From Candidatus Omnitrophota bacterium (GTDB lineage Bacteria > Omnitrophota > Gorgyraeia > Zapsychrales > Fredricksoniimonadaceae): DNA of 33,812 nucleotides. Position numbers and translations under genes: made by a program. The notes beneath the pieces were generated by a model, which worked only from the letters and a program-made list of their open reading frames with translations, had not been told where the DNA came from and did not search any database. The DNA lies in NCBI GenBank assembly GCA_028865345.1, contig JAGWKL010000017.1:1-33812 (forward strand), read 5' to 3'. This document shows, in pieces, positions 1-32,690 of this stretch (its first letter is position 1; each line of letters begins with the position of its first letter).

Positions 1-3000
1 TCACTCCAGTTGATCCCCGTCTTGCTCAACACTTGCAAGTCATTCCAGTTGAGCCCCGTCTTGCTCAACACTCCAAAGTCAGCCCAGTTGATCCCTGTGC
101 GGCCAAGCACATTGATATCAGCCCAGTTGATCCCTGTATTGCTCAACACGGATAAGTCATACCAATTAATGGAAGAATTGGTGAATACTCCAAAGTCCTG
201 CCAATTGATTCCCGAGCCGCTTAATACGGCCAGGTAGGACCAATTGACGCCGGCCTGGGTGAATACTTGCAGGGCCTGCCAGTTGATATTGGAATTTGTC
301 AGGCTTCCTAATGAAACCCAGTTGATCCCGGTCTTGGTCATTACTCCTAAATCACTCCAATTGATCCCTGTCTTGCTCAACACTTGCAAGTCATTCCAGT
401 TGATTCCTGTATTGCTCAATACTCCAAAATCGCTCCAGTTGATCCCGGTCTTGCCCAACACTCCAAAATCAGCCCAGTTGATCCCAGCCTTGCTCCACAC
501 TCCGAAATCATTCCAGTTGATGCCCGCCTTGCCCAACACGCCCCAATCGCTCCAGTTGATGCCCGTCGATGTAAATACCGCCATGTCCTGCCAGTTGATC
601 CCCGTCTTCGTCATCACCGCAAAGTCGCTCCAGTTGATACCCGCCTCAGACAGCGTGTTGATGTAACTGCCCAGATCCATCCAGTTGACGCCTGTCGTAG
701 ACAACACCCGGAAATCACTCCAGTTGACGCCCGTGCGGCTCAACACGTCCATATCATTCCAATTGATCCCGGTGTTGCTCAATACTCCAAGATCGCTCCA
801 GTTGATCCCTGTCTTGCTCAACACACCAAAATCGTTCCAGTTGATCCCCGTGCGGCTGACCACATTGATGTCATTCCAGTTGATCCCCGTGCGGCCAAGC
901 ACATTGATATCAGCCCAGTTGATCCCTGTATTGCTCAATACTCCAAAGTCACTCCAGTTGACCCCGGTCTTGGTAAATACCGCCATGTCTTCCCAATTGA
1001 TCCCCGTCCTCGTCATCACCGCAAAATCGCTCCAGTTGATCCCCGCCTCGGACAGTGTATTGATGTAGCTGCCCAAATCCATCCAGTTGATCCCCGTGGT
1101 CGACAAAATCCTAAAATCATTCCAGTTGATGCCCGTCTTGCTCCACACCGCCATGTCATCCCAATTGACACCGGCATTGCTCATCACTCCGAAGTCACTC
1201 CAGTTGATCCCTGTCTTGCTCAACACTCCAAAATCATTCCAGTTGATCCCCGTGCGGCTGATCACATTGATATCATTCCAGTTCAACCCTGCCTTGCTTA
1301 AGACCCCGAAATCATTCCAGTTGATCCCTGTCTTGCTCAACACTCCGAAGTCATTCCAGTTGAGCCCGGTCTTGCTCAACACTCCGAAATCACTCCAATT
1401 AATTCCTGCATGACCCAAAACATACAAATCATTCCAATTTAGACCAGCCTTGGTCAAAACCCCCAAATCATTCCAGTTGATCCCTGTCTTGCTCATTACT
1501 CCGAAGTCATTCCAATTGATCCCCGTGCGGCCAAGCACATTGATGTCAGCCCAGTTGATCCCTGTGCTGCTCAACACTCCCAAATCGCTCCAATTGATCC
1601 CTGTGTGGCCCAAAACATACAAATCATTCCAATTCAACCCCGTCTTGGTCAAAACCCCCAAATCATTCCAGTTGATCCCCGTATTACTCAAAACTCCTAA
1701 ATCACTCCAGTTGATCCCTGTGTGGCCCAAAACATACAAATCATTCCAATTCAGCCCCGCCTTGGTCAAAACCCCCAAATCATTCCAGTTGATCCCTGTC
1801 TTGCTCAAGACTCCAAAGTCATTCCAGTTGATCCCCGTGCGGCCAAGCACATTGATGTCAGCCCAGTTGATCCCTGTGTTGCTCAACACTCCCAAATCAC
1901 TCCAGTTGATCCCTGTGTGGCCCAAAACATACAAATCATTCCAATTCAGCCCTGCCTTGGTCAAAACTCCCAAATCACTCCAATTGATCCCTGTGTGGCC
2001 CAAAACATACAAATCATTCCAATTCAGCCCCGTCTTGGTCAAAACCCCCAAATCGTTCCAGTTGATCCCTGTCTTGCTCATCACGCCCAAATCGTTCCAG
2101 TTGATCCCTGTCTTGCTCATCACACCGAAGTCATTCCAATTAATGCCTGTATGGCTGACCAAATAAATATCATTCCAGTTCAGGCCCGCGCGGCTGAGCA
2201 CATTCAAATCGTACCAATTAATACCCGTCTTACTTAATATTCCGAAGTCCTCCCAGTTGATGCCTGTGGTGCTTAACACATCCAGGTCATTCCAGTTGAT
2301 TCCTGTATTGCTCAACACTCCAAAATCACTCCAGTTGATCCCGGTTTTACTCAACACTCCAAAATCACTCCAGTTGATCCCGGTTTTACTCAACACTCCA
2401 AAATCACTCCAATTGATCCCGGTTTTACTCAACACTCCAAAATCACTCCAGTTGATCCCGGTTTTACTCAACACTCCGAAATCATTCCAATTGATTCCGG
2501 TCGTGGTAAATACCGCCATGTCCTGCCAGTTGATCCCCGTCTTCGTCATCACCGCAAAATCGCTCCAGTTGATCCCCGCCTCGGAGAGCGTATTGATGTA
2601 GCTGCCCAGATCCATCCAGTTGATCCCGGTGGTCGACAATATCCTGAAATCATTCCAGTTGATCCCTGCCTTGCTCCACGTCGCAAAGTCACCCCAGTTG
2701 ACGCCCGCCTTGCTCAACACACCCAAATCACTCCAGTTGACGCCCGTCGCAGACAACACCTGGAAATTATTCCAGTTGATCCCTGTCTTGCTTAAGACTC
2801 CCAGGTCATTCCAATTGATCCCCGCTTTGCCCAAGACGCCGAAATCACTCCAATTGACCCCTGTCCTGGACAAGACATCCAAATCACCCCAGTTAATGCC
2901 TGTATTACTCAATACGCCAAAATCGCTCCAGTTGATCCCCGTCTTACTTAACACCCCGAAATCGCTCCAGTTGACGCCCGTCGCAGACAACACCTGGAAG

Positions 3001-6000
3001 TTATTCCAGTTGATCCCTGTCTTGCTTAATACCCCCAAATCATTCCAATTCACACCCGCATTGCTCATCACGCTGAAATTGTTCCAATTCACACCGGTCT
3101 TGGTCAATACGCTCAAATCGCTCCAATTCAAGCCCGTCTTGGTCATCACCGCCAGATCGCTCCAGTTGATCCCCGCTTCGGACAAGGTATTGACGAAACT
3201 GCCGATGTCCATCCAGTTGACCCCGACGGTCGTCAAGGTTTGAAAATCGCTCCAGTTGATGCCTGTGCGGCTCAAGGCGTTGAGGTCACTCCAATTGATC
3301 CCGGTGTTGCTCAAAACCCCCAAATCGCTCCAGTTGACTCCTGTCTTGCTTAAGACCCCGAAATCATTCCAATTGATCCCTGTTTTGCTTAAAACCTCAA
3401 AGTCATTCCAGTTGACGCCTGTCTTGCTCATGACCCCAAAATCAGCCCAATTGATCCCTGTTTTGCTTAAAACCTGCATATCATTCCAATTAATTCCCGT
3501 CTTGCTTAATACGCCCAGGTCAGACCAATTGATTGAGGAATTGGTAAACACCCCAAAGTCATTCCAATTGATCCCCGCAGAGCTTAATACGGCCAAATAG
3601 TTCCAGTTGATGCCGGCCTGAGTGAATAATTGCAGGGAATCCCAATTAACGCCTGAATTCGTCAAGATCTGGAAGGACGACCAATTGACCCCTATCCTGG
3701 TCATGACGCTCAGATCACTCCAGTTGATCCCTATCCTGCTCATCACCTCAAAATCATTCCAATTAATGCCCGTCTTGCTCAACACGCCGAAATCGTTCCA
3801 ATTGACACCCGTCTTGCTTAACACACCGAAATCAGCCCAGTTGATCCCTGTCTTTCCCAGCACGCCGAAATCAGCCCAATTGACACCCGTCTTGCTCAAA
3901 ACGTTGAGATCGTTCCAGTTGATCCCTGTCTTGCCCAGCACGCCGAGATCAGCCCAATTGATTCCCGTCGTGCTCAACACGGCAAAATCATTCCAATTGA
4001 TCCCTGTTCGGCTTACAACATTCAAATCATTCCAATTGACTCCCGTCGTGCTTAATACCGATATGTTAGACCAGTTGATGGAAGAATTGGTAAACACCGC
4101 AAAGTCCTGCCAATTGATCCCCGAAGAGCTTAATATGGCCAGATAATCCCAGTTGACACCGGCCTGAGTGAATATTTGCAGGGCCTCCCAGTTAACGTTG
4201 GAATTTGTCAGGCTTCCCATGGATGCCCAATTGATCCCGGTCTTGGTCATCACGCTCAGATCATCCCAGTTGATCCCGGCCTTGCTTAAGACCCCGAAAT
4301 TATTCCAGTTGATCCCAGCCTTACTCCACACTCCAAAATCGCTCCAGTTGATCCCTGTCTTGCTCAACACGCCAAAATCATTCCAGTTGACCCCGACCGT
4401 GCTCATGACCCCGAGGTCATTCCAATTAATACCCGCCTCGGAAAGGACAGCAAGGTCCGACCAATTAATATTCGACGATCCCCCGAGAGTGGACCCTATG
4501 ACCGCGGTCAAATTGGCCCAGTTGATCCCCCGGGTGGTTAAAACAGTCATGTCCTCCCAATTGACGCTTGCCGTACTCATTACCTCAAGATCGTCCCAAT
4601 TGACACCCGTCCTGCTCAACACCTCAAAGTCATTCCAGTTGATCCCCGCTTTGCCTAACACCCCGAAATCGCTCCAGTTGATGCCGGTCTTGCTCAACAC
4701 GCCGAAATCGTTCCAGTTGATGCCGGTCTTGCTCAACACGCCGAAATCGTTCCAGTTGACCCCTGTCCTGCTCAATACCCCCCAATCGCTCCAATTGATC
4801 CCCGTTGTGGTGAAAACCGCCATGTCCTGCCAATTGACCCCTGTCCTGGTCATCACCGCCAGATCGCTCCAGTTGATCCCCGCTTCGGACAAGGTGTTGA
4901 CGAAACTGCCGATGTCCATCCAGTTGACCCCGACGGTCGTCAATGATTGAAAATCGCTCCAGTTGATGCCCGTGCGGCTCAAGGCGTTCAAATCATTCCA
5001 GTTGATCCCTCTGGTGCTCATTACTCCCAAATCGCTCCAGTTGATCCCCGTCTTGCTTAAGACCCCAAAGTCGCTCCAATTGATCCCCGTCTTGCCTAAA
5101 ACGTTAAGATCGTTCCAATTGATCCCTGTCGTGGTTAATACGCCAAGGTCACTCCAATTGATCCCCGCCTTGCCCAGCACGCCGAAATCATTCCAGTTGA
5201 TCCCTGTGCGGCTTACAACATTCAAATCATTCCAATTGATCCCCGTCTTGGTCAATACGCCCAGGTCATTCCAATTGACCCCCGCCTTGCCCAACACGCC
5301 GAAATCAGCCCAGTTGATCCCTGTACGGCTTACAACATTCAAGTCATTCCAATTGATCCCCGTCGTGCTTAACACGCCAAGGTCATTCCAATTGACCCCT
5401 GCGTTACTCAACACCCCGAAATCGCTCCAATTGACACCGATCTTGGAGAATACGGCCAAATCGCTCCAATTCATGCCTGTCTTGGTCATCACCGCCAAAT
5501 CGCTCCAGTTGATCCCTGCTTCAGACAAGGTATTAAAGAAGCTGCCGATGTCCATCCAGTTGATCCCCACCGTTGTGAACACCTGGAAATCGCTCCAGTT
5601 GATGCCGGTCCTGGACCATACGTTGATATCATTCCAGTTAATGCCGGCATTGCTCATGACGCCCAGGCTGCTCCAATTGATCCCGGTGCGGCTTAAAACA
5701 TCAAAATCATTCCAATTGATTCCTGTATAACTTAAAACATGAAAATCATTCCAGTTGACCCCGGCCTTGGTCAACACGCCGAAATCATTCCAGTTGATGC
5801 CTGTACGGCTTAAAACATCAAAATCATTCCAATTCACCCCCGTACGGCTTAAGACATTAAAATCATTCCAATTGACCCCGGCCTTGGTCAACACCCCGAA
5901 ATCACTCCAGTTGACGCCTGATAAACTGATAGTATTAAGGCCGCTCCAATTGATTCCTGTATAAGTTAAAACGCGAAGATCATTCCAGTTGATGCCCGCC

Positions 6001-8480
6001 TTGGTCAGCACCCCGAAATCATTCCAGTTGATGCCTGTCTTGCTCAACACATTAAAATCATTCCAGTTGATCCCTGTACGGCTTAAAACATTAAGATCAT
6101 TCCAATTGACCCCAGCATTGCTCAACACCCCGAAATCGCTCCAGTTGACCCCTGTCTTGGTCATTACAGCCAGGTCTTCCCAGTTCAAACCATTTCTTGT
6201 CAGTATGGCCAAATCGCTCCAGTTGATCCCCGCCTCAGACAAGGTATTAAAGAAGCCGCCGATATCCGACCAGTTGATCGATGTGGTCGTCATCTGTTGA
6301 AGGTCAGACCAGTTGATGCCTGTGTGGCTCCAAACCTCCATATCATTCCAATTGATGCCCGCCTTGCTCATGACGCCAAAACTGCTCCAGTTGACGCCGG
6401 TGCGGCTCAAGACCTGCCAATCATTCCAGTTGATTCCCGTTTTGCTCCACACCGCAAAGTCAGCCCAGTTGATCCCGGCCTTGCCCAACACGCCAAGATC
6501 AGCCCAGTTGATCCCGGTTTTGCCCAACACGCCAAGATCAGCCCAGTTGATCCCCGTGGAACTTAAAACATTAAGATCGCTCCAATTAACGCCCGCCTTG
6601 GTCATCACCCCGAAATCATTCCAGTTGATCCCGTTTTTGCTTAATACGGTGAAATCATTCCAGTTGATGCCCACCGTGCTTATTCGATTCACATCATTCC
6701 AGTTGACGCCCTTGTTGGTCAGCACCGCAAAATCAGTCCAGTTAACGCCGGCATTGGCCATGATGTACAAACCCGTCCAATTGACCTGGCTTGTCTGGAG
6801 TTCGTTTATGGCCGTCCAATTGACCTGGGACAGGTTGGAAAAAGCCTCCCAATTGATCCCCTGGTGGGACAAAAGTTCGAAATCCAACCAGTTGACGCCG
6901 TTGGTCGTCATGACCCTTAAATCAAGCCAGTTGATGCCTATCTTTGTCATCACGGCCAGGTCGCTCCAATTGATCCCCGCTTCGGACAAGGTATTGATGT
7001 AGCTGCCCAGGTCAGACCAGTTGATCCCTGTCTTGCTCAACACGCCGAAGTCATTCCAGTTGATTCCCCTTGTCGACATCACCCCGAAATCGTTCCAGTT
7101 GATGCCTGCCGCGCTTAAGGTCTGGAGATTCTGCCAGTTCATGCCCGTGGTGGAAATGTTGGCCCAATATTGCCAGTTCACGCCTGCCCTGGTCATCACC
7201 GCAAAATCACTCCAGTTGATCCCTGCTTCGGAAAGCGTGTTGAAATAGCTTCCCAGATCCGACCAATTGATGCCTGTCCGCGTCAGGATGTTCAGATCAT
7301 TCCAGTTGATCCCTCTCGTCGACACTGTATACAGGTCATTCCAGTTGATCCCCGCCTTGGACAAAACCCCGAAATCACTCCAGTTGACCCCTGAGGCGCC
7401 TACCACGACCAGGGCCTGCCAATTGACATTGGCCGCACTCAGCGCGTTAATGCCGGCCCAATTGACCCCTGCTTTGGATAAAACACCGAGACCGGCCCAA
7501 TTGATGCCGTTCGTGCCCATCACTGCGAAGTCATTCCAATTAATACCGGTTTTGGTCATCACTGCCAAATCGCTCCAGTTGATCCCTGCTTCGGAAAGCG
7601 TGTTAAGGGAACCGCCCAAATTCGCCCAATTGATCCCTGAACGGCTTAAGACATTCAATCCGTTCCAGTTAATTCCCGTCTTACTTAAGACACCCATGTC
7701 AGCCCAATTGATCCCTGCCTTGCCCAAGACGCCAAAATCGTTCCAGTTGATGCCGGTCTTGCTCAAGACGTTGAAATCGCTCCAGTTGATGCCCGTCTTC
7801 CCTAATACTCCCAGGTCAGCCCAATTGAGGCCTGCCTTGCTCAGCACGCCGAAATCATTCCAGTTGATGCCTGCATAGCTCAAAGTGCGAAAATCATTCC
7901 AATTGATATTATTTTCAGACAGGACCGTCAAGTCGCTCCAGTTGACCCCCACCTGGCTCAAAGCCGCCAGGTCATACCAGTTGATCCCCTGGGACCAGAC
8001 CACACCGGCATGGGTCAAGACCTCAAAATCATACCAATTGACCCCCACCTTGCTGGAAACGGCCAGATCGTTCCAGTTGATCCCTGCCTTGGCCAATACG
8101 GCCAGGTCATTCCAGTTGACGCCCGTGTTGAAAAGCCTTTGCACATCGGCCCAGTTGACGCCTTTTTTGGTGAGCACTCCGAAATCGCTCCAGTTGATAC
8201 CCACGTTGGAAAGCACGTTCAAGTCCTGCCAGTTGATGCCATCGGCGGACATTTTGGCGATATCGCTCCAATTGACCCCGGCGTTGGTTTGCACCGCGAA
8301 ACTGTTCCAGTTGATGCCGTAGGAATTCGACAACTGAGTGAAATCGTAAATGCTGCTGACGCGCGTTTGGAGAACGCCGACGTCCTGCCAGTTGACGGTA
8401 TCGGTCTTGGCTTTAATGGCTGCTATATCCGCCCAGTTGATCTTATCGGTATTGGCCTTGATGACGCCGATGTCTTCCCA
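1..8480 (-). repeat. 39-bp coding tandem repeat array (about 210 units), 13-aa consensus G[IV]NWxD[LF]xVLSK[TA]
   Basis: Core '(c/a)ca(g/a)ttgatcc...' recurs every 39 bp on the plus strand (minus: ATC AAC TGG = INW). Occasional longer units (for example 51 bp) keep the reading frame. Confidence 0.95.
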
Positions 8481-9464
8481 GTTGATGACATTGCCGTAGG
8501 AATCTTGAGTAATAATACCGGCGTTTCCGTTGAGGGCCAATGGGACGTCAGCTGTACAGGAGGCTGCCCCGCAAGGTGTCTGGCCGGTAACAGTTACTAC
8601 GGCGCTAAATCCATTGGCAAATGTAGCGCTGTTAAAAGCAGCTGGAGTCCAGACAGAAGTTGAAACGCACCAATTATTGGTATAGTTGGCAGTAAAGGCA
8701 GTTGAACCAAGGGTCGAGCCGTTCTGAGTCCCATCCGGATTATAAATAGCAACAGAACACTCATCGCCTGCATTTGTATTATCGGATGAAGCAAAAGGTT
8801 CGGCTTGATTATCATGGGCCACCCACACGTAGATGTAATACCCGCCTTTACCGCTATTGGCTCCGTTATCCCATACAGCCGAAGCTTGAGGGCCGGTACC
8901 GGGATTGATATTAAAGGTAGCTGAGACGCCCGGTGTCAAATTAGAAGATGTGGGTGATGTCGCTTGAAGGGTATATAATTGGCCGGCAGCTGTAATGCCC
9001 AAATTGGAAAATTGCGCCAATCCATTGACAACATTTACTGTAGCGGTACCCATCAAACCGCCATTGCCGGGATTGCTTAAAATCGTCACCGTCACCTGGT
9101 CCGTATTGTCATTGGCAACGATATTGCCGTAGGCATCTTCAACAGCCACCACCGGCTGGCGAGAGAACGGCTGCGAGTGATTGGTATCCGACGGGCTTAC
9201 AGTAAAGACCAGCTTGGCCGGCGTGCCGTAAGACAAGGTGCCGGTCGAGCCGGAAGTGGCATAGGGAGAATTGTTCTGTGCCCCGCCGTTGTAGATATCG
9301 CTGCCGATGGAGGATTCCGCGGGGTCGGTGGTTTCGTTGCCGCCGCTGTATTGGGCCCAGGCCGAAGAGAGAAAGGCGCTCCCAAAGAAAATCGCCCAAA
9401 AGGCAAAAATTTTCCATAGGCCGGGTCTTAGCTTCAATTTTAAAACCGTGTCTTTGTCAGGCAT
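1..9464 (-). CDS. Giant secreted tandem-repeat protein (5' part; 3' end beyond left window edge)
   Basis: Minus-strand ATG at 9464 gives MPDKDTVLKLKLRPGLWKIFAFWAIFFGSAFLSSAWA^QYSGGNETT (clear signal peptide). Manual translation is continuous from 9464 to about 7700, and spot checks at about 6777, 4503, 2334, 162 and 3 are all in the same frame (plus-strand codons begin at multiples of 3). Repeats read GINWNDFGVLSKT etc. No stop reached before position 1. Confidence 0.92.
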   Translation of the reverse strand, partial: MPDKDTVLKLKLRPGLWKIFAFWAIFFGSAFLSSAWAQYSGGNETTDPAESSIGSDIYNGGAQNNSPYATSGSTGTLSYGTPAKLVFTVSPSDTNHSQPFSRQPVVAVEDAYGNIVANDNTDQVTVTILSNPGNGGLMGTATVNVVNGLAQFSNLGITAAGQLYTLQATSPTSSNLTPGVSATFNINPGTGPQASAVWDNGANSGKGGYYIYVWVAHDNQAEPFASSDNTNAGDECSVAIYNPDGTQNGSTLGSTAFTANYTNNWCVSTSVWTPAAFNSATFANGFSAVVTVTGQTPCGAASCTADVPLALNGNAGIITQDSYGNVINWEDIGVIKANTDKINWADIAAIKAKTDTVNWQDVGVLQTRVSSIYDFTQLSNSYGINWNSFAVQTNAGVNWSDIAKMSADGINWQDLNVLSNVGINWSDFGVLTKKGVNWADVQRLFNTGVNWNDLAVLAKAGINWNDLAVSSKVGVNWYDFEVLTHAGVVWSQGINWYDLAALSQVGVNWSDLTVLSENNINWNDFRTLSYAGINWNDFGVLSKAGLNWADLGVLGKTGINWSDFNVLSKTGINWNDFGVLGKAGINWADMGVLSKTGINWNGLNVLSRSGINWANLGGSLNTLSEAGINWSDLAVMTKTGINWNDFAVMGTNGINWAGLGVLSKAGVNWAGINALSAANVNWQALVVVGASGVNWSDFGVLSKAGINWNDLYTVSTRGINWNDLNILTRTGINWSDLGSYFNTLSEAGINWSDFAVMTRAGVNWQYWANISTTGMNWQNLQTLSAAGINWNDFGVMSTRGINWNDFGVLSKTGINWSDLGSYINTLSEAGINWSDLAVMTKIGINWLDLRVMTTNGVNWLDFELLSHQGINWEAFSNLSQVNWTAINELQTSQVNWTGLYIMANAGVNWTDFAVLTNKGVNWNDVNRISTVGINWNDFTVLSKNGINWNDFGVMTKAGVNWSDLNVLSSTGINWADLGVLGKTGINWADLGVLGKAGINWADFAVWSKTGINWNDWQVLSRTGVNWSSFGVMSKAGINWNDMEVWSHTGINWSDLQQMTTTSINWSDIGGFFNTLSEAGINWSDLAILTRNGLNWEDLAVMTKTGVNWSDFGVLSNAGVNWNDLNVLSRTGINWNDFNVLSKTGINWNDFGVLTKAGINWNDLRVLTYTGINWSGLNTISLSGVNWSDFGVLTKAGVNWNDFNVLSRTGVNWNDFDVLSRTGINWNDFGVLTKAGVNWNDFHVLSYTGINWNDFDVLSRTGINWSSLGVMSNAGINWNDINVWSRTGINWSDFQVFTTVGINWMDIGSFFNTLSEAGINWSDLAVMTKTGMNWSDLAVFSKIGVNWSDFGVLSNAGVNWNDLGVLSTTGINWNDLNVVSRTGINWADFGVLGKAGVNWNDLGVLTKTGINWNDLNVVSRTGINWNDFGVLGKAGINWSDLGVLTTTGINWNDLNVLGKTGINWSDFGVLSKTGINWSDLGVMSTRGINWNDLNALSRTGINWSDFQSLTTVGVNWMDIGSFVNTLSEAGINWSDLAVMTRTGVNWQDMAVFTTTGINWSDWGVLSRTGVNWNDFGVLSKTGINWNDFGVLSKTGINWSDFGVLGKAGINWNDFEVLSRTGVNWDDLEVMSTASVNWEDMTVLTTRGINWANLTAVIGSTLGGSSNINWSDLAVLSEAGINWNDLGVMSTVGVNWNDFGVLSKTGINWSDFGVWSKAGINWNNFGVLSKAGINWDDLSVMTKTGINWASMGSLTNSNVNWEALQIFTQAGVNWDYLAILSSSGINWQDFAVFTNSSINWSNISVLSTTGVNWNDLNVVSRTGINWNDFAVLSTTGINWADLGVLGKTGINWNDLNVLSKTGVNWADFGVLGKTGINWADFGVLSKTGVNWNDFGVLSKTGINWNDFEVMSRIGINWSDLSVMTRIGVNWSSFQILTNSGVNWDSLQLFTQAGINWNYLAVLSSAGINWNDFGVFTNSSINWSDLGVLSKTGINWNDMQVLSKTGINWADFGVMSKTGVNWNDFEVLSKTGINWNDFGVLSKTGVNWSDLGVLSNTGINWSDLNALSRTGINWSDFQTLTTVGVNWMDIGSFVNTLSEAGINWSDLAVMTKTGLNWSDLSVLTKTGVNWNNFSVMSNAGVNWNDLGVLSKTGINWNNFQVLSATGVNWSDFGVLSKTGINWSDFGVLSNTGINWGDLDVLSRTGVNWSDFGVLGKAGINWNDLGVLSKTGINWNNFQVLSATGVNWSDLGVLSKAGVNWGDFATWSKAGINWNDFRILSTTGINWMDLGSYINTLSEAGINWSDFAVMTKTGINWQDMAVFTTTGINWNDFGVLSKTGINWSDFGVLSKTGINWSDFGVLSKTGINWSDFGVLSKTGINWSDFGVLSNTGINWNDLDVLSTTGINWEDFGILSKTGINWYDLNVLSRAGLNWNDIYLVSHTGINWNDFGVMSKTGINWNDLGVMSKTGINWNDLGVLTKTGLNWNDLYVLGHTGINWSDLGVLTKAGLNWNDLYVLGHTGINWSDLGVLSNTGINWADINVLGRTGINWNDFGVLSKTGINWNDLGVLTKAGLNWNDLYVLGHTGINWSDLGVLSNTGINWNDLGVLTKTGLNWNDLYVLGHTGINWSDLGVLSSTGINWADINVLGRTGINWNDFGVMSKTGINWNDLGVLTKAGLNWNDLYVLGHAGINWSDFGVLSKTGLNWNDFGVLSKTGINWNDFGVLSKAGLNWNDINVISRTGINWNDFGVLSKTGINWSDFGVMSNAGVNWDDMAVWSKTGINWNDFRILSTTGINWMDLGSYINTLSEAGINWSDFAVMTRTGINWEDMAVFTKTGVNWSDFGVLSNTGINWADINVLGRTGINWNDINVVSRTGINWNDFGVLSKTGINWSDLGVLSNTGINWNDMDVLSRTGVNWSDFRVLSTTGVNWMDLGSYINTLSEAGINWSDFAVMTKTGINWQDMAVFTSTGINWSDWGVLGKAGINWNDFGVWSKAGINWADFGVLGKTGINWSDFGVLSNTGINWNDLQVLSKTGINWSDLGVMTKTGINWVSLGSLTNSNINWQALQVFTQAGVNWSYLAVLSGSGINWQDFGVFTNSSINWYDLSVLSNTGINWADINVLGRTGINWADFGVLSKTGLNWNDLQVLSKTGINWS
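8900..9230 (-). other. Invasin/Big-type bacterial Ig-like domain in the giant protein
   Basis: Translated YGTPAKLVFTVSPSDTNHSQPFSRQPVVAVEDAYGNIVANDNTDQVTVTILSNPGNGGLMGTATVNVVNGLAQFSNLGITAAGQLYTLQATSPTSSNLTPGVSATFNINPG; the 'vaVeDayGNiv' and 'G.a.FsnL.i..aG.yTL.A' signature is typical of Big_1-like repeats. Confidence 0.7.
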
Positions 9465-9483: not shown

Positions 9484-9538
9484 TGTCATTCCCGCATGCT
9501 TTTGCTCCGAGTCTGGGGCCAGGCGCGGGAATCCAGAT
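9484..9538. repeat. REP-like palindromic intergenic element (GTCATTCCCGC...GCGGGAATCCAG type)
   Basis: tgtcattcccgcatgc...ggcgcgggaatccag: inverted repeat ATTCCCGC/GCGGGAAT, in the 80-bp gap between the SUMF1 gene and the giant gene. Confidence 0.65.
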
Positions 9539-9544
9539 CAAGTC

Positions 9545-11212
9545 TTACGTCGCGTTTCTCCCTAAACGACCCCCGTAAAACACACCGCAACTGGGATCGT
9601 AACGTTCCATACACCCTTGTGAATCAGGGTCTTTAGCTGCATAAAATCTCGAAGATGTCGCGTACACGGATGAGTTGGGCGACTGGAAATCCCCGCCGCG
9701 GTAACCGATGCCGACGGTGCCGTCCACCCCGTTGGCGGTATTGGAATCCATGCCCGGCCAGTCCGCGTTGGTGGCAAAGCCATATGTCGTCAGCACTCCG
9801 GTGCCGTCCGTGCCCTGGAAATTAAGCCCTTCCGGCCGCCCCACGGTCACCACCGGCTCGGCCAGGTTGCCGGAAAGCTCCATGTTGCCGTAATAACCTG
9901 CGCCGGCGCTTGCCCTGGGATTGGTGGAAGTCCCGACACTCGCCGCAAAAATACCCACACGCAACGGCCCCATCTGTCCGGCGGCAATGCCCCCGCTGCG
10001 ACCGTCGCCGGAGGTCCATGCCACGGAGTTGCTGTTGATATTGGCCGTATCTTTCAAGGTCTCCGCGCCGTTTTCATCGCCATTGGGAACAATGTCCCCG
10101 GCGCCGGGCGCCGTGTATGAAGTTGTGCCCCACACAAATTCTCCCGGTGTGGGCGGATCGTCCTTACCGCGCGCCGCCTTTTCATATTCCAATTCCGTGA
10201 TGGGGCGCAACGCGGCCCATTCGGCGTACGCCGCCAAATCCGGCCAGGAAATATAACTGACCGGCCTGGCAGGCCTTAAAGTCGTTGCCGGGCTCGAAGG
10301 GATCGCGGCATTCCAGGAGATCGTATTGCGGTTGACGACTCCTTCGGAATTCTTGCCGCCTGTTCTCGTGTTGGCGGATGTGATGTCGCGGTAAGGACGG
10401 GCCGCCACCGGAAGCGTGTTAAAGAAAGCCACCCATTCGCCTTCAGTAAGCTCATATTTCATCAGATAAAAAGCTCCATAACCTTTAGGGAAGGACGCGG
10501 GTATCAAAAATGAAGAGCCGCTGGCAAATTCATCACCCTTGGCGCCGGTGTTCTGATAATAATACGTACCGCTTGCGGCACCGGTCGTTTGGATGGCGTT
10601 TTCATTTTGGATATACCAGGGCTCCGTCACCGCGCTGCCTTGAGTAAAGGCGTATTCTGTTGAACTGTTTGAACTTCCGTCGCCGGCATAAAAAGCGCCT
10701 TGAGGAATGTAGACCATCTCAATGCCGTAGATGGTGGTCAGCGTGTTGCCGGACTGGGCCACCGCCGCCGAAAGCCCGTCCAGCGCGTAATTCCATGTAA
10801 ATTGAATGCCGGTCAAAGCAATGTTTCCTGAGGCTTGGGCCGACCGCTGCACGAAAAACCCTTTTTGATCGGAAGGGACAAACACCTCGAATTGGCTGGC
10901 AAATTGAGCAGGGATGGAAAAGCCGGCAGGATTGATCCCGGAACCGGCCATGGAGGCATGCTTCCATGTGGCCCCGCCGTCCGTTGAATATTTCATGAAG
11001 ACCCATACGGCATCATAATTTGTCTGGTTGCGCCAGCTGTTGTCCTGGCTCAAATTAAAAGAGAAGGTCATGGTGCCGCCGGCCGTATTGGCGCTGACTT
11101 CATCCAAACCGCTCAATTGCAGATTACTGGCCCATGCCGTAGACGCAAACATGGATGTCATTGCGAGAAGCGCAGCCACGAAGCAATCTCTGACCGAATT
11201 AACTCCCATCAT
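9545..11212 (-). CDS. Secreted SUMF1/FGE-sulfatase-fold protein with N-terminal 'NSWRNQTNYDAVWVFMKY' domain
   Basis: 555 aa; YGIEMVYIPQGAFYAGD, FYLMKYELTEGEW, RPARPVSYISWPDLAAYAEWAALRPITELEYEKAARG, GYRGGDF are hallmarks of the SUMF1 fold. No Cys at the FGE catalytic positions. Confidence 0.85.
   Translation of the reverse strand: MMGVNSVRDCFVAALLAMTSMFASTAWASNLQLSGLDEVSANTAGGTMTFSFNLSQDNSWRNQTNYDAVWVFMKYSTDGGATWKHASMAGSGINPAGFSIPAQFASQFEVFVPSDQKGFFVQRSAQASGNIALTGIQFTWNYALDGLSAAVAQSGNTLTTIYGIEMVYIPQGAFYAGDGSSNSSTEYAFTQGSAVTEPWYIQNENAIQTTGAASGTYYYQNTGAKGDEFASGSSFLIPASFPKGYGAFYLMKYELTEGEWVAFFNTLPVAARPYRDITSANTRTGGKNSEGVVNRNTISWNAAIPSSPATTLRPARPVSYISWPDLAAYAEWAALRPITELEYEKAARGKDDPPTPGEFVWGTTSYTAPGAGDIVPNGDENGAETLKDTANINSNSVAWTSGDGRSGGIAAGQMGPLRVGIFAASVGTSTNPRASAGAGYYGNMELSGNLAEPVVTVGRPEGLNFQGTDGTGVLTTYGFATNADWPGMDSNTANGVDGTVGIGYRGGDFQSPNSSVYATSSRFYAAKDPDSQGCMERYDPSCGVFYGGRLGRNAT
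11156..11190. repeat. REP-like interspersed element (GTCATTGCGAG...CGAAGCAATC type) overlapping the start of the 9545..11212 CDS
   Basis: tgtcattgcgagaagcgcagccacgaagcaatctc; its minus-strand translation is the familiar 'DCFVAALLAMT'. Confidence 0.7.
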
Positions 11213-12782
11213 AAGTCCTGACTCCCCTGCCGCCGTAATTATTCAAAGCCGCTGTATCCGTCCTTGCCGCCTCGGCGCGGTCCGATGTCCTTAAATAATT
11301 CGCGCCGTCAGACCATGAGCCGCCGCGAAACCCGGACCCTGCCGCACCGTCAACGCCGTTGGCAGGCGTGCCCTGGTCCATCCCCGGCCAGCCGGCGACA
11401 TCGGCATTACCTTCAAAGCCCGCCGTTGTATCAAGGGCCCCGTTGCCGTCAGTTCCTGTAAAAGCCAAACCTGAGGCATTGCCGATAGTTACAACACGTT
11501 CTTTCAAATTACCGCCTAGGTCCATGACCCCGTAAAAAGACGCTCCGGCGGCGGTTCTTGTAGAATTTGTCCCTGCAAATATCCCGCCGCGCAAAGGCCC
11601 CTGGTTATAACCGGCGCCCAATGAAGAATCCCCTCCTGTAAAAATGGTGTCGCCGTAATTGGCATTGGCATTGGCGGGTGCCGTGATAGTCTCTGTCCCG
11701 TCCTCAGTTGTGCCGCTGATGGCAACGGCCGGAGCAATGGTCTGGTTTCCCCAAATATATTCGCCGGGAACAGGCACCAGCGGCCCGCGGGACATTTTTT
11801 CAAATTCCAATTCCGTCATGGGGCGCAAAGCGTCCCAATCCAGAAAAGCCGCCAAATCCATCCAGCTCAAATAACCCACCGCGCGGCCCGGCCTCTGGGT
11901 CGAGCACAACAAAGGCGTGCCTGCGCAACTGATCGTGTTACGGGCAATGACGTTGGTGGAGTTCTTATGATTATTGTCCGACAAGTCCCGGTTGATGCGC
12001 GCCGCCGCCGGTAAAGAATTGACAAACTGCGCCCATTCCCCTTCGTTGATCTCATACTTCATCACATAAAACGCGTTATATCCTTTAGGGAAGGCGGCCG
12101 GGATGGTGAAGCCGGCGCCGCTGGCGAATTCTCCGGGATTATTGGCGGAAACATAATAATAAGCTCCGGACGCGGCATTGGTGACGGGAATGGGATTTTC
12201 GCTGGTGATATGCCATGGGGTGCTGTCCGCAGAGCCGCTATTTAAGGAAGCCACACTGGCGTTATAGTCGCCCGCGTAAAAAGAGCCTTGGGGGATAAAG
12301 ACCATTTCCAGGCCGAATACGCTGGCGTAGATCTGGTCGGAATCGGTGAACCCGCAGGACTGATAGTTGACGGTCAGCTGCACATTTTGGGTATTGACAT
12401 TGCCGATAAAACCCGGGTTGGCAGGTTGCAAAAAGGCGCCGGCGGCGTCCTGGGGCACATAGATCTGCAAATTAGACCCTGTCCCGACGGAAGTGCCCGC
12501 CGGATTCAAACCGGTGGCGGTAATTGGGCATAACACGGCGTCAGTGGGTGAAGCGGCAGAGTTGATCAAGCGCACGGTGAGCCACGCTGCGTCATAATTG
12601 ATCTTATTGCGCCAGGAATTCTGCCAGCTGACATTAAATGTCACGACCACTGTATGGGCATTCGGGTCGCGCGTGCCTAAGGTCACATTGGTCACTGACA
12701 GGTTATTGGCAAAACTTGGGGTCGCACTTACCGCTAAGATCAGCACTGCCGCTGCTAATATTTTTCCGAAATATCCGGTCAT
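11199..12782 (-). CDS. Secreted SUMF1/FGE-sulfatase-fold protein, paralog of 9545..11212
   Basis: 527 aa; signal peptide MTGYFGKILAAAVLILAVSATPSFA; same N-terminal domain (NSWRNKINYDAAWLTVRL) and FGLEMVFIPQGSFYAGD, FYVMKYEINEGEWAQF, RPMTELEFEKMSRG, GFRGGSW. Confidence 0.86.
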   Translation of the reverse strand: MTGYFGKILAAAVLILAVSATPSFANNLSVTNVTLGTRDPNAHTVVVTFNVSWQNSWRNKINYDAAWLTVRLINSAASPTDAVLCPITATGLNPAGTSVGTGSNLQIYVPQDAAGAFLQPANPGFIGNVNTQNVQLTVNYQSCGFTDSDQIYASVFGLEMVFIPQGSFYAGDYNASVASLNSGSADSTPWHITSENPIPVTNAASGAYYYVSANNPGEFASGAGFTIPAAFPKGYNAFYVMKYEINEGEWAQFVNSLPAAARINRDLSDNNHKNSTNVIARNTISCAGTPLLCSTQRPGRAVGYLSWMDLAAFLDWDALRPMTELEFEKMSRGPLVPVPGEYIWGNQTIAPAVAISGTTEDGTETITAPANANANYGDTIFTGGDSSLGAGYNQGPLRGGIFAGTNSTRTAAGASFYGVMDLGGNLKERVVTIGNASGLAFTGTDGNGALDTTAGFEGNADVAGWPGMDQGTPANGVDGAAGSGFRGGSWSDGANYLRTSDRAEAARTDTAALNNYGGRGVRTYDGS

Positions 12783-15961: not shown

Positions 15962-16993
15962 TTAAGAAATCTTTTCCTTCTTCCCAGGCAGGAAGATCAA
16001 AATCCCCGTCGAGAAACCGGCCAGGCGCGCCAGGGCCCGCAGGAACATCACGCCACCGTATAAAATCCCTTCAAAAAAAAGCCGCGTCATCATCCATGCG
16101 CAAAAAATTTCAAAAAACAGGAAGGACAAGGCCGCCCAACAAACCATGCCCATATATATAAAATTGAAACCCGCGCTTAAGACTGCCCCCGCAGCCAGAA
16201 AGGCCGCCCAGGGTATTTCGATCATGTCCTTCCAGTAGGTATACCCGTCCCCGCGCATCATGGCGGGGTGGTCTTTGTACATCTTCAGGCGCCAGAAGCC
16301 GTGCCGGAATTGTTCCTTCAGATATTTGGACAGGATTTGCGGGTGGTAATGGTCCACCAGAGCCATGCGTTGAAAATAAATCCGTTGGCCCGAACGGATG
16401 ATCTTATAACTTAAGTCATTGTCCTCCCCGCTGGCATGGCGGTATGCTGTATTGAACCCCCCCACCGCCTCAAAAACATCTTTTCTGGCGCAAAAGTTAT
16501 AACTGCCGAAGGAGTTGGGAAAATCCGGCATCAAATGGGTATGGCGCCAAAGGATCTCTTTGTACACACACCGGGCCAGTAGGCTTTGGGGGTTGGCGAT
16601 CCCGTAACTTCCCGCCACAACGCCCGTTTGCGCGCGCTTCAAACCCTCCATCAACAAAGAGATCCAGTCCTCGTGCGGGACACAGTCGGAATCCGTAAAG
16701 GCGAGATAAGCGCCCCGGGCGAGCCGGGCGCCGTGATTGCGCGCCGCGGCAGGGCCGGCGTTGTCCTGGCGCGCGTATTTGACCGACGAAAACGAGCGGA
16801 CGATGTCTGCCGTGTTGTCGCGGGAACCGTCATCCACGACGATCACCTCGAAGGGCTGGGAACATTTTTGCCGGGACAGCGCTTCCAGAGTCCGGCCGAT
16901 CGTGGCCGAGGCGTTGTAAGCAGGAACTATAACACTGACGGTTACATCCGTTACAGACATTTCTTTCATTGTCATGCCCGCGAAAACAGACAT
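15962..16993 (-). CDS. Glycosyltransferase family 2
   Basis: 343 aa; VSVIVPAYNASATIGRTLEALSRQ, VIVVDDGSRDNTADIV, AFTDSDCVPHEDW, GEDNDLSYKI; C-terminal TM segments. True start probably ATG at 16960 (MSVTDVTVS); the longer N-terminus derives from a repeat. Confidence 0.88.
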   Translation of the reverse strand: MSVFAGMTMKEMSVTDVTVSVIVPAYNASATIGRTLEALSRQKCSQPFEVIVVDDGSRDNTADIVRSFSSVKYARQDNAGPAAARNHGARLARGAYLAFTDSDCVPHEDWISLLMEGLKRAQTGVVAGSYGIANPQSLLARCVYKEILWRHTHLMPDFPNSFGSYNFCARKDVFEAVGGFNTAYRHASGEDNDLSYKIIRSGQRIYFQRMALVDHYHPQILSKYLKEQFRHGFWRLKMYKDHPAMMRGDGYTYWKDMIEIPWAAFLAAGAVLSAGFNFIYMGMVCWAALSFLFFEIFCAWMMTRLFFEGILYGGVMFLRALARLAGFSTGILIFLPGKKEKIS

Positions 16994-17007
16994 CCAAAGG
17001 TGTTAAT

Positions 17008-17248
17008 GACGGGATAGGTTCGTCTTTTGGCGAGGAGTAAGTTTTTTAGCCAAAGCAACTCATGGCTTGAAGGGCAGCCCGAGGCTTTTGGCCGAGGGCT
17101 GGCCAAACCTGTTCGAGCTTTGAAGCTCCAGAGAGCTTCAAAGCGAGTTGTTTGGCCACCTTCGAGCCATGAGGCCTTTGGCGGCCCCGCCGCAGGCGGG
17201 GCAAAAAACGAGCGAAGCCTCCTCGCCAAAAGACAAACCTATCCCGTC
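17008..17248. mobile_element. MITE-like long foldback (inverted-repeat) element
   Basis: 29-bp terminal inverted repeats gacgggataggttcgtcttttggcgagga (17008-17036) and tcctcgccaaaagacaaacctatcccgtc (17220-17248), one mismatch; interior arms also pair. Confidence 0.7.
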
Positions 17249-17250
17249 GT

Positions 17251-17604
17251 TTATTTCTCGGATTTCTTTTTCAATTCCTTCAGCTCGAATTCCAGCAACG
17301 CGATTTTCTGGGCCATCAGGTCGTTTCTGATATTTTGCTGGCACAAAAACACCGTCATTACAAGGCTTAAGAACACAAACACGCAAAACAACGTGAAGAA
17401 AATGAAGTTGCTGGGCAGTTCAAACCCGAAAAAATCGGCGCAGGCAAAGATCAACCGGTAAAAGACCGCGAAAAAAATCCCGACCGCGGAAACCGAAAGC
17501 CAGCCCACCGCGTACTTGAACGTCAACCGGCGCCGGCGCACCAGATCTATGACGAACAAGAAAACGGCCACTGAAACAAGGAACGCCACCAGATGAATGT
17601 TCAT
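17251..17604 (-). CDS. DUF2304 family membrane protein
   Basis: 117 aa, three hydrophobic segments plus C-terminal coiled coil (ALLEFELKELKKK); next to a DPM1-like GT2, the usual DUF2304 context. Confidence 0.7.
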   Translation of the reverse strand: MNIHLVAFLVSVAVFLFVIDLVRRRRLTFKYAVGWLSVSAVGIFFAVFYRLIFACADFFGFELPSNFIFFTLFCVFVFLSLVMTVFLCQQNIRNDLMAQKIALLEFELKELKKKSEK

Positions 17605-18446: not shown

Positions 18447-19691
18447 TTACTGCTGCTGCGTTTGCATTTCAATATAGGCCGCGGCCAGATTGATCAGCCC
18501 GTCCTTGGGGGCGCCGGTGATGATTTTATTGGGCGTAATCCCGTCGAAACCAAACACCTGGCCGTCGGGATAATATCCCCGGGCCACGACCAAAGCCAGC
18601 ATGGATCCGTCTCCCATGGGGAACATCCTCTTGAGCAGGATCTGCCCGGCGGTGTTGACCCCCAGCACCACGGCACGCTTCCTGAATTGCATGATGCCGG
18701 TGAACAACTCCGCGGCAGAGCCCGTATCGGCATCGACGAGGATGACGATGGGGCCGTCAAATTGGTATTGGGCGCCGATATCCGGCACGTCCAGATCGGC
18801 CTTGGGCCCGTTACGTTCCTGAAAGTAGGCAAATTCCTGGCCGCCTTTCAGGAAAAAAGCGGAAATTTCCCGCGCGGCCAACGGCGGTCCGCCGGGATTG
18901 CCCCGCAAATCCAGCACCAGGCCCTTGGGGCGCTGCTCTTCTATCCAGGAAAGGAAACGGTACATGTCCTGTCCGGTCATGCGGTTGAATTTGGGCACTT
19001 CCAGGCAAAACACGCCGGGCACCGGCACCGGATGGAGAAACACGGTCTGCTTGAAATATTTCTTGCTGACGGCGACAATGGTCTTTCGCGTTGCGGTCTC
19101 ATGGCTCAGATAGGTCAACCGGACACGGGTATTGACCAGCGGCGTCAATTCTTTTTCGATCTCCTCCTGGGTCATGCGCGCCACAGCGCGGCCGTTGATT
19201 TGCAGGATGACATCATTTTCACGCAAACCTTTCTCATAGGCGTCGGAACGCGGCTCCATGCGGGTCACCAAAAACCCGGTATCATTCTTTTGGCCGATGA
19301 TGCCCAGGTCGATTTTTTCGCCCAGGGCTTCACGTTTGAATTTGACGGCGGGTTTGGGCGGATAAAACTGGGTGAACTTATCGTCCCTGGACCTCAAAGC
19401 GTCGGCCAGATACCAGGCGCTGCGCCAGCGGACGTAATCGATGCTTTTGCCCTCGCCTTTAAGCTGCGGATAAATGATGGTATTGAACTCTTTCAGAAAA
19501 TGGTCGTAGATCTTACGGTCAGGCGCGAGGTAATAATTTTCCTGGAAAGTTTTATAGACCTTCTCAAAAAAGGCCGTGTATTGTTTGTATGCGCGGCCGC
19601 TGAAAGCTGCGGGAGCGGCGGCAAGAACCGGGGATGAAACCGCGCCGAGGCTTGCGGCCATCAAAAAAATGCATATGATCCTGGAACACAT
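18447..19691 (-). CDS. S41 family (C-terminal processing/IRBP-like) peptidase with PDZ domain
   Basis: Signal peptide; PDZ GFLVTRMEPRSDAYEKGLRENDVILQINGRAV; LVLDLRGNPGG; PIVILVDADTGSAAELFTGIMQ. Confidence 0.85.
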   Translation of the reverse strand: MCSRIICIFLMAASLGAVSSPVLAAAPAAFSGRAYKQYTAFFEKVYKTFQENYYLAPDRKIYDHFLKEFNTIIYPQLKGEGKSIDYVRWRSAWYLADALRSRDDKFTQFYPPKPAVKFKREALGEKIDLGIIGQKNDTGFLVTRMEPRSDAYEKGLRENDVILQINGRAVARMTQEEIEKELTPLVNTRVRLTYLSHETATRKTIVAVSKKYFKQTVFLHPVPVPGVFCLEVPKFNRMTGQDMYRFLSWIEEQRPKGLVLDLRGNPGGPPLAAREISAFFLKGGQEFAYFQERNGPKADLDVPDIGAQYQFDGPIVILVDADTGSAAELFTGIMQFRKRAVVLGVNTAGQILLKRMFPMGDGSMLALVVARGYYPDGQVFGFDGITPNKIITGAPKDGLINLAAAYIEMQTQQQ

Positions 19692-29183: not shown

Positions 29184-29185
29184 AA

Positions 29186-29280
29186 AACTCCCCGCCCCCC
29201 AAATCCGAACTTTTTCTATGAGGTCATTTTTGGCCTTACTAACGCCAGAAGCGGCAAACCTTGGTTTATTTCCAATTGAC
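29186..29280. repeat. Interspersed repeat, copy 1 of 3
   Basis: aactccccgccccccaaatccgaactttttctatgaggtcatttttggccttactaacgcc...; core aaatccgaactttttctatgag shared with 30541 and 32592. Confidence 0.8.
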
Positions 29281-30540: not shown

Positions 30541-30641
30541 AACTCCCCGGCCACCCCCAAAATCCGAACTTTTTCTATGAGATCATTTTGAGGATAACGA
30601 ACACTAAAAGTAATGATGCATGGTCTATTTTAAACATAAAC
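30541..30641. repeat. Interspersed repeat, copy 2 of 3
   Basis: aactccccggccacccccaaaatccgaactttttctatgagatcatttt... Confidence 0.8.
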
Positions 30642-32591: not shown

Positions 32592-32690
32592 GGCTCCCCG
32601 GTCACCCCCAAAATCCGAACTTTTTCTATGAGGCCTTTTTCGGTCTAACCAATGCTAAAACTGGCGACAGATGGGTTATTTTTAACTGAA
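32592..32690. repeat. Interspersed repeat, copy 3 of 3 (overlaps the 3' end of the ATPase gene)
   Basis: ggctccccggtcacccccaaaatccgaactttttctatgaggcctttttcggtctaaccaatgctaaaactggcgac... Confidence 0.8.

Follow-up and report, generated by a model that had tools for sequence, protein, structure and literature searches.

Architecture of the locus

The window, i.e. the whole 33,812-nt stretch analysed (contig JAGWKL010000017.1 of a Candidatus Omnitrophota bacterium), carries on its minus strand two tandem genes for FGE-sulfatase-like proteins, the second of which (hereafter the host gene) coincides at its start with a short interspersed repeat (Table 1). The PF03781 domain scores 52.1 bits in the host protein and 35.5 bits in its partner (cut-off 23.3), and no FGE-sulfatase members beyond these two were found in the genome. 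The pair, with its order kept, is widely conserved, having a match in 39 of 55 genomes searched. The ATG of the host gene sits 14 nt inside the 3′ end of the upstream gene; this overlap, already pointed out in a preliminary description of this DNA, is conserved in congeners. Genes for TPR, secretin and T2SSC-like proteins lie upstream of the pair on the same strand.

Table 1. Features of the tandem pair and of the associated repeats (window positions)
Feature	Position	Strand	Remarks
Second repeat type (GTCATTCCCGC...GCGGGAATCC)	9485..9534	+	Directly beyond the 3′ end of the host gene; one of six matches in the genome
Host gene, predicted secreted FGE-sulfatase-like protein (PF03781)	9545..11212	-	555 residues; second of the tandem pair
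Predicted signal peptide, MMGVNSVRDCFVAALLAMTSMFASTAWA	11129..11212	-	28 codons; hydropathy and ortholog comparison; probable cleavage after AWA
DCFVAALLAMT, residues 9-19	11156..11188	-	Repeat read in frame as predicted hydrophobic core; translation and hydropathy
Repeat copy, tag T-GTCATTGCGAG...GAAGCAATCTC	11157..11190	+	34 nt; the family also occurs in congeners and many phyla
Tandem paralog, ordinary signal peptide MTGYFGKILAAAVLILAVSATPSFA	11199..12782	-	46% identical to the host protein

Other parts of the window show features of their own. On the minus strand, positions 1-8900 are occupied by an open frame that runs off the contig end, comprises 2966 residues or more and is built from repeats of ∼10 residues (e.g. 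TGINWxDLGVLSK); the many plus-strand ORFs in this region are its shadow. In the region 16960-17251, a glycosyltransferase ORF (15962-16993) begins MSVFAGMTM, a start that may derive from a degraded repeat of the second type, and beside it lie 33-nt inverted arms (17005-17037 and 17219-17251) that are 94% complementary. Finally, a 93-nt sequence with a AATCCGAACTTTTTCTATGAG core occurs in three copies (29184-29276, 30543-30635 and 32594-32686; 67-100% alike), located in or near gene borders.

A repeat translated as the core of a predicted signal peptide

The 34-nt copy reads GTCATTGCGAGAAGCGCAGCCACGAAGCAATCTC and matches exactly a short repeat of wide occurrence. It is the single match to this repeat in the window (≤3 mismatches), and none of 100 shuffled sequences contains any. 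Its TGTC tag is at 11156-11159 and its other end is GAAGCAATCTC, not the CCA-like tail of CGTC-tagged REPs. The host protein begins with MMGVNSVRDCFVAALLAMTSMFASTAWA followed by SNLQLSG, and its residues 9-19 are covered in frame by the repeat, in agreement with the preliminary description, which had read the core as translated repeat DNA. Among the six frames of the repeat only this one is hydrophobic (DCFVAALLAM, mean 2.09; the remaining five are below 0.1).

Simple properties of this N-terminus were compared with those of related proteins. The best 10-residue hydropathy is 2.37 (CFVAALLAMT), at the low end of the range of 2.22-3.79 spanned by the paralog and 19 orthologs; for six cytoplasmic control proteins from the window the values are -0.16 to 1.48. 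An uncharged stretch of 20 residues accommodates the 7-15-residue hydrophobic core of Sec signals, and an A-W-A cleavage motif before SNLQ aligns with the A-W-A or A-x-A of orthologs. The net side-chain charge of the n-region is 0 (R8 is cancelled by D9), compared with +1 to +3 in the same 19 orthologs and paralog. Judged from these features, the signal peptide is probably functional, and export may be weaker than in relatives, given the uncharged n-region and the position of the core in the hydropathy range. The same two features, with an Asp immediately ahead of the core, would also be expected if the repeat had broken the signal peptide, so that the protein is made with little or no export and the gene is heading for loss. 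This is unlikely, since the ORF is intact across 555 codons and its product 88% identical to that of the nearest relative (G003), the core remains inside the ortholog range and the A-W-A is retained. Moreover, relative to a form that occurs nine times among the loci retrieved (GATTGCTTCGTCGCTGCGCTCCTCGCAATGAC), the copy has two substitutions (GTC>GTG and CTC>CTT), both silent in the DCFVAALLAMT frame, although so small a number does not allow a test of selection.

Another reading places the repeat in an untranslated leader, with the true start downstream. Di Nocera et al. (PMC3733652) caution, from other species, that REPs at annotated N-termini are in many cases extragenic, and in-frame alternative starts exist at codons 12 (GTG), 18 and 21 (both ATG). 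As the preliminary description had argued for the next in-frame Met, these leave too little: ATG18 and ATG21 give 11 and 8 residues ahead of the cleavage site, and GTG12 begins within the repeat, so that no start codon yields a full signal peptide free of repeat codons. With the overlap between ATG and upstream stop conserved in congeners, and all orthologs predicted to be secreted, a downstream start is highly improbable.

Ancestral state of the signal peptide

Ortholog N-termini were collected from 23 further genomes within the order; 21 were translated back to the preceding stop and two (G004 and G006) were taken from the alignment. In all 23, a hydrophobic stretch that closes with A-x-A or a related motif directly precedes a conserved NNL/SNL-like mature start, and neither repeat type is present at any of these loci, that of G003 included. 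The signal peptides of congeners read MTAFNRALVILIFFLALGTSVYA in G003, MMVIKNILLTVVFVLATFSTVWA in G005 and MMAINLIKQSLFFIFLFFVSMSASVAWA in G002. They comprise 23 residues in G003, G004, G005 and G006, and 28 in G002 as in the window genome (G000), yet that of G002 is without repeat. In an alignment of six congeners, the upstream-stop overlap and the A-W-A end align, whereas the core is replaced in G000.

Since the orthologs and the tandem paralog have signal peptides of the ordinary type at this position, the comparison indicates that the signal peptide is old and that the repeat was swapped in for its core and did not create it. A signal peptide created from nothing is rejected. Thus, the preliminary proposal of a repeat recruited as an export signal stands for the core and fails for the signal peptide as a whole, older ones being present in the 23 orthologs and the paralog. 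That proposal was to fall if repeat-free orthologs had the same N-terminus; it withstands the comparison, as they share the position and the flanks but not the core sequence. Taking out the 34 nt alone would break the frame, which points to a compensating loss or replacement of sequence.

The repeat family and its placement

A pattern search of the window genome (2.14 Mb, 65 contigs) found three copies of the repeat: the exact one in the window and others in contigs C39 (3 mismatches) and C42 (2 mismatches). All are in coding sequence, namely in the signal peptide, in a loop of a histidine-kinase-like protein (GGTLSVIARNETTKQSFIIEISDTG) and in the last codons and stop of an ORF. The C-terminal insertion was considered as orthologous to one in G006 and this was rejected, the two proteins showing no similarity. 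In the adjacent tandem kinase the other repeat type occupies the same loop (GGTLTVTTNVIPAKAGIQYHQYIIEISDTG); at this C39 locus (L165, L002), the peptides VIPAKAGIQ and VIARNETTKQS of the tandem genes stem from different repeat types.

An assembly or binning artefact, in which the repeat joins unrelated sequences, has in its favour the apparent draft state of the source genome (65 contigs) and the ability of short repeats to mislead assemblers. It is scarcely credible, because the sequences on both sides come from the conserved tandem pair, whose order and spacing match those of orthologs, the reading frame is preserved, and the genome offers few further copies that could have led to a false join.

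With three copies, the repeat cannot be called dispersed in this genome, as had been claimed; the term is apt for relatives, the family having matches in many phyla and 7-75 copies in five of six congeners. Exact-arm copies number 0 in G003 and 7, 13, 15, 36 and 75 in the others, about half of them within ORFs, with units of about 26-50 nt. By a mechanical rule that makes the shares approximate, 142 distinct copies in the genus divide into 52 in the interior of ORFs of fair length, 16 N-terminal, 6 C-terminal, 10 that themselves contain the start of the ORF, and 58 that are intergenic or belong to short ORFs. The palindromic character assigned to the repeat holds weakly for the 34-nt copy, which folds at the level of shuffled sequences (z about 0). 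A strong DNA hairpin is rejected, the window copy and two family variants all folding no better than shuffles. Searches of Rfam and of plasmids returned no match, and a literature search with the letters of the repeat returned unrelated papers only. A REP-associated Y1 transposase is likewise rejected as driver: Y1_Tnp (PF01797) is absent from the window genome, and copy number in congeners does not track its presence.

Recurrence in other signal peptides

The search for further gene-start cases, suggested in the preliminary description, was productive. The same one of the six frames is found in predicted Sec or lipoprotein signal peptides of five further genes, from congeners and one other genus, two of them with ambiguous starts. 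In a trypsin-like protein of G005, the repeat forms the core (MYYTSRIITILSDCFAALAMTTNIVWA before DN), and orthologs in G000, G002 and G003 have plain signal peptides. A secretin-like protein of G005 (MFQLIKIKDCFASLAMTLLTTLFVVMLLHGSSWA before Q) has plain counterparts in G002 and G003; here, and in the predicted signal peptide of G006 L335 (MKMFSMIKDCFASLAMTFQLFLLSFCFIGSIAYA), the ATG of the repeat itself is a possible alternative start. In the lipoprotein starts of G001 L311 (MYLINCVIARSRRRRSNLLKDCFASLAMTLIGASVLICGC) and G027 L042 (MNTFVSLRAKSEGRSEAIYLKDCFVILFLVMTVFFAGC), paired copies supply a basic n-region and a hydrophobic core before the lipobox Cys. Ortholog comparisons covered the trypsin-like and secretin-like genes and one more case. 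In an S41-like protein of G001, the n-region comes from the repeat, and a repeat-free ortholog (75% identical) lies in the window at 18447-19691.

Other repeats occur at comparable places. In the G004 ortholog of the trypsin-like protein, the position of the repeat is taken by a different one (WIPACAGMT); at this locus (L142, contig C17) a long near-perfect palindrome and the other repeat type at the start give NIFLIILIQCVPVFSLWIPACAGMT in place of the signal peptide of relatives. Different repeat copies also precede the hydrophobic stretch in genes presumed from their sequences to be BatD-like (G002 and G004) and pilus-type (G004 and G005). In one BatD-like ORF (L116, G002 contig C37), the frame crosses a repeat copy at residue 615 and continues into what resembles a second protein, whose own start is signal-peptide-like (LLSLFFSISLLLTATAWA); two genes may have fused here across the repeat.

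Among in-ORF copies, N-terminal ones use the DCF frame more often (5 of 16) than those in ORF interiors do (4 of 52; Fisher P = 0.028, with classes set post hoc and related copies non-independent). Placements as a core (5 of 68 in-ORF copies) exceed a guessed share of 0.5-2%, itself an estimate made for this analysis (P = 2.5e-5 to 0.012). A strict search for the repeat followed in frame by A-[FSYCWL]-A had eight hits in 81 genomes of the order, only the window gene being in frame (the other cases of recurrence lack the motif), and a scan of genome contigs for the repeat plus A-W-A gave at least 119 stretches from other phyla, with no convincing in-frame signal peptide among those listed. The recurrence in signal peptides is thus a habit seen so far in this genus and in one related genus.

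Proposed history

Signal peptides require hydrophobicity rather than a set sequence, and tolerate many sequences. A replacement of the core is feasible on this ground, one frame of the repeat (DCFxAxLAMT) being hydrophobic and free of stops. The preferred reading (probability about 0.8) is that a repeat of the REP/RPE kind entered an existing signal peptide and became its core, that the protein is still exported by Sec and cut after AWA, and that this is one case of a genus-wide habit. In the lineage to G000, a small interspersed repeat would have inserted in the stretch that encodes the signal peptide of an FGE-sulfatase-like protein, secreted even before this event. The net outcome would be a replacement, with 34 nt gained, other sequence lost and the frame preserved, which made the repeat the hydrophobic core; Sec export and cleavage after AWA would have been retained. 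The order of insertion and deletion, like the mechanism of mobility, is inferred. In the genus at large, in-frame insertion would recur, with signal peptides as repeated hosts.

It is tempting, if speculative, to go further and regard the repeat family as a mobile stock of export signals, with signal peptides in the genus turning over repeatedly by repeat insertion. One frame would then provide hydrophobic cores and the other strand basic n-regions, a pair in opposite orientation could build a whole lipoprotein signal (as in L311 and L042), and turnover would be visible in the different repeats carried by the same gene in G004 and G005.

Comparison with known systems

In function, Rickettsia palindromic elements (RPEs) come closest to the present repeat. 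Like RPEs and the coding palindromes of Wolbachia (Ogata, Claverie), the present repeats are small, lie in frame in many unrelated genes and are tolerated; the family has many copies, a large share of them in frame within unrelated genes, and the tandem kinases with repeats in the same loop recall this trait. In contrast, RPEs are described as about 100-150 bp and have a long stem, whereas the window copy has 34 nt and family units ∼26-50 bp. Furthermore, RPEs appear as tolerated inserts in the literature consulted, while here the repeat is the predicted core of an export signal.

The CGTC-tagged REPs of families 1-4 (Di Nocera et al. 2013, PMC3733652), for which TGTC and CCTC tag variants are allowed and intragenic and N-terminal copies are reported, have in common with this repeat the TGTC tag, A-T at the first stem positions, a short unit, dimers and intragenic copies. 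No linked transposase is described for them; in the window genome, a search for Y1_Tnp gave no match. Their stem of 8-9 bp, 4-5 nt loop and CCA tail do not fit the present repeat with its weak hairpin.

A direct precedent is the Yersinia YPAL/RU-2 repeat (Delihas 2007; reviewed in PMC2229807), which has a hydrophobic frame and makes up part of the signal peptide predicted for YPO1552; the kind of event is thus already known. There, a 168-bp element belongs to a putative new exported protein, whereas here a 34-nt element replaces the core in a protein that is conserved and was secreted ancestrally. A literature search, outside which most subscription journals fell, gave no paper that describes this repeat in signal peptides. 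The present case differs in that the protein affected is conserved and secreted, in that its ancestral state can be read, and in the parallel cases in other genes.

Significance

The host gene offers a clear before-and-after case of interspersed repeat DNA that is now part of a conserved gene, with the ancestral state readable in many relatives. In addition, one repeat family samples the sequence tolerance of signal peptides several times inside one genus. For annotation, a warning follows: peptides of the DCFVAxLLAMT type at protein starts may be real, and not merely mistranslated intergenic repeats.
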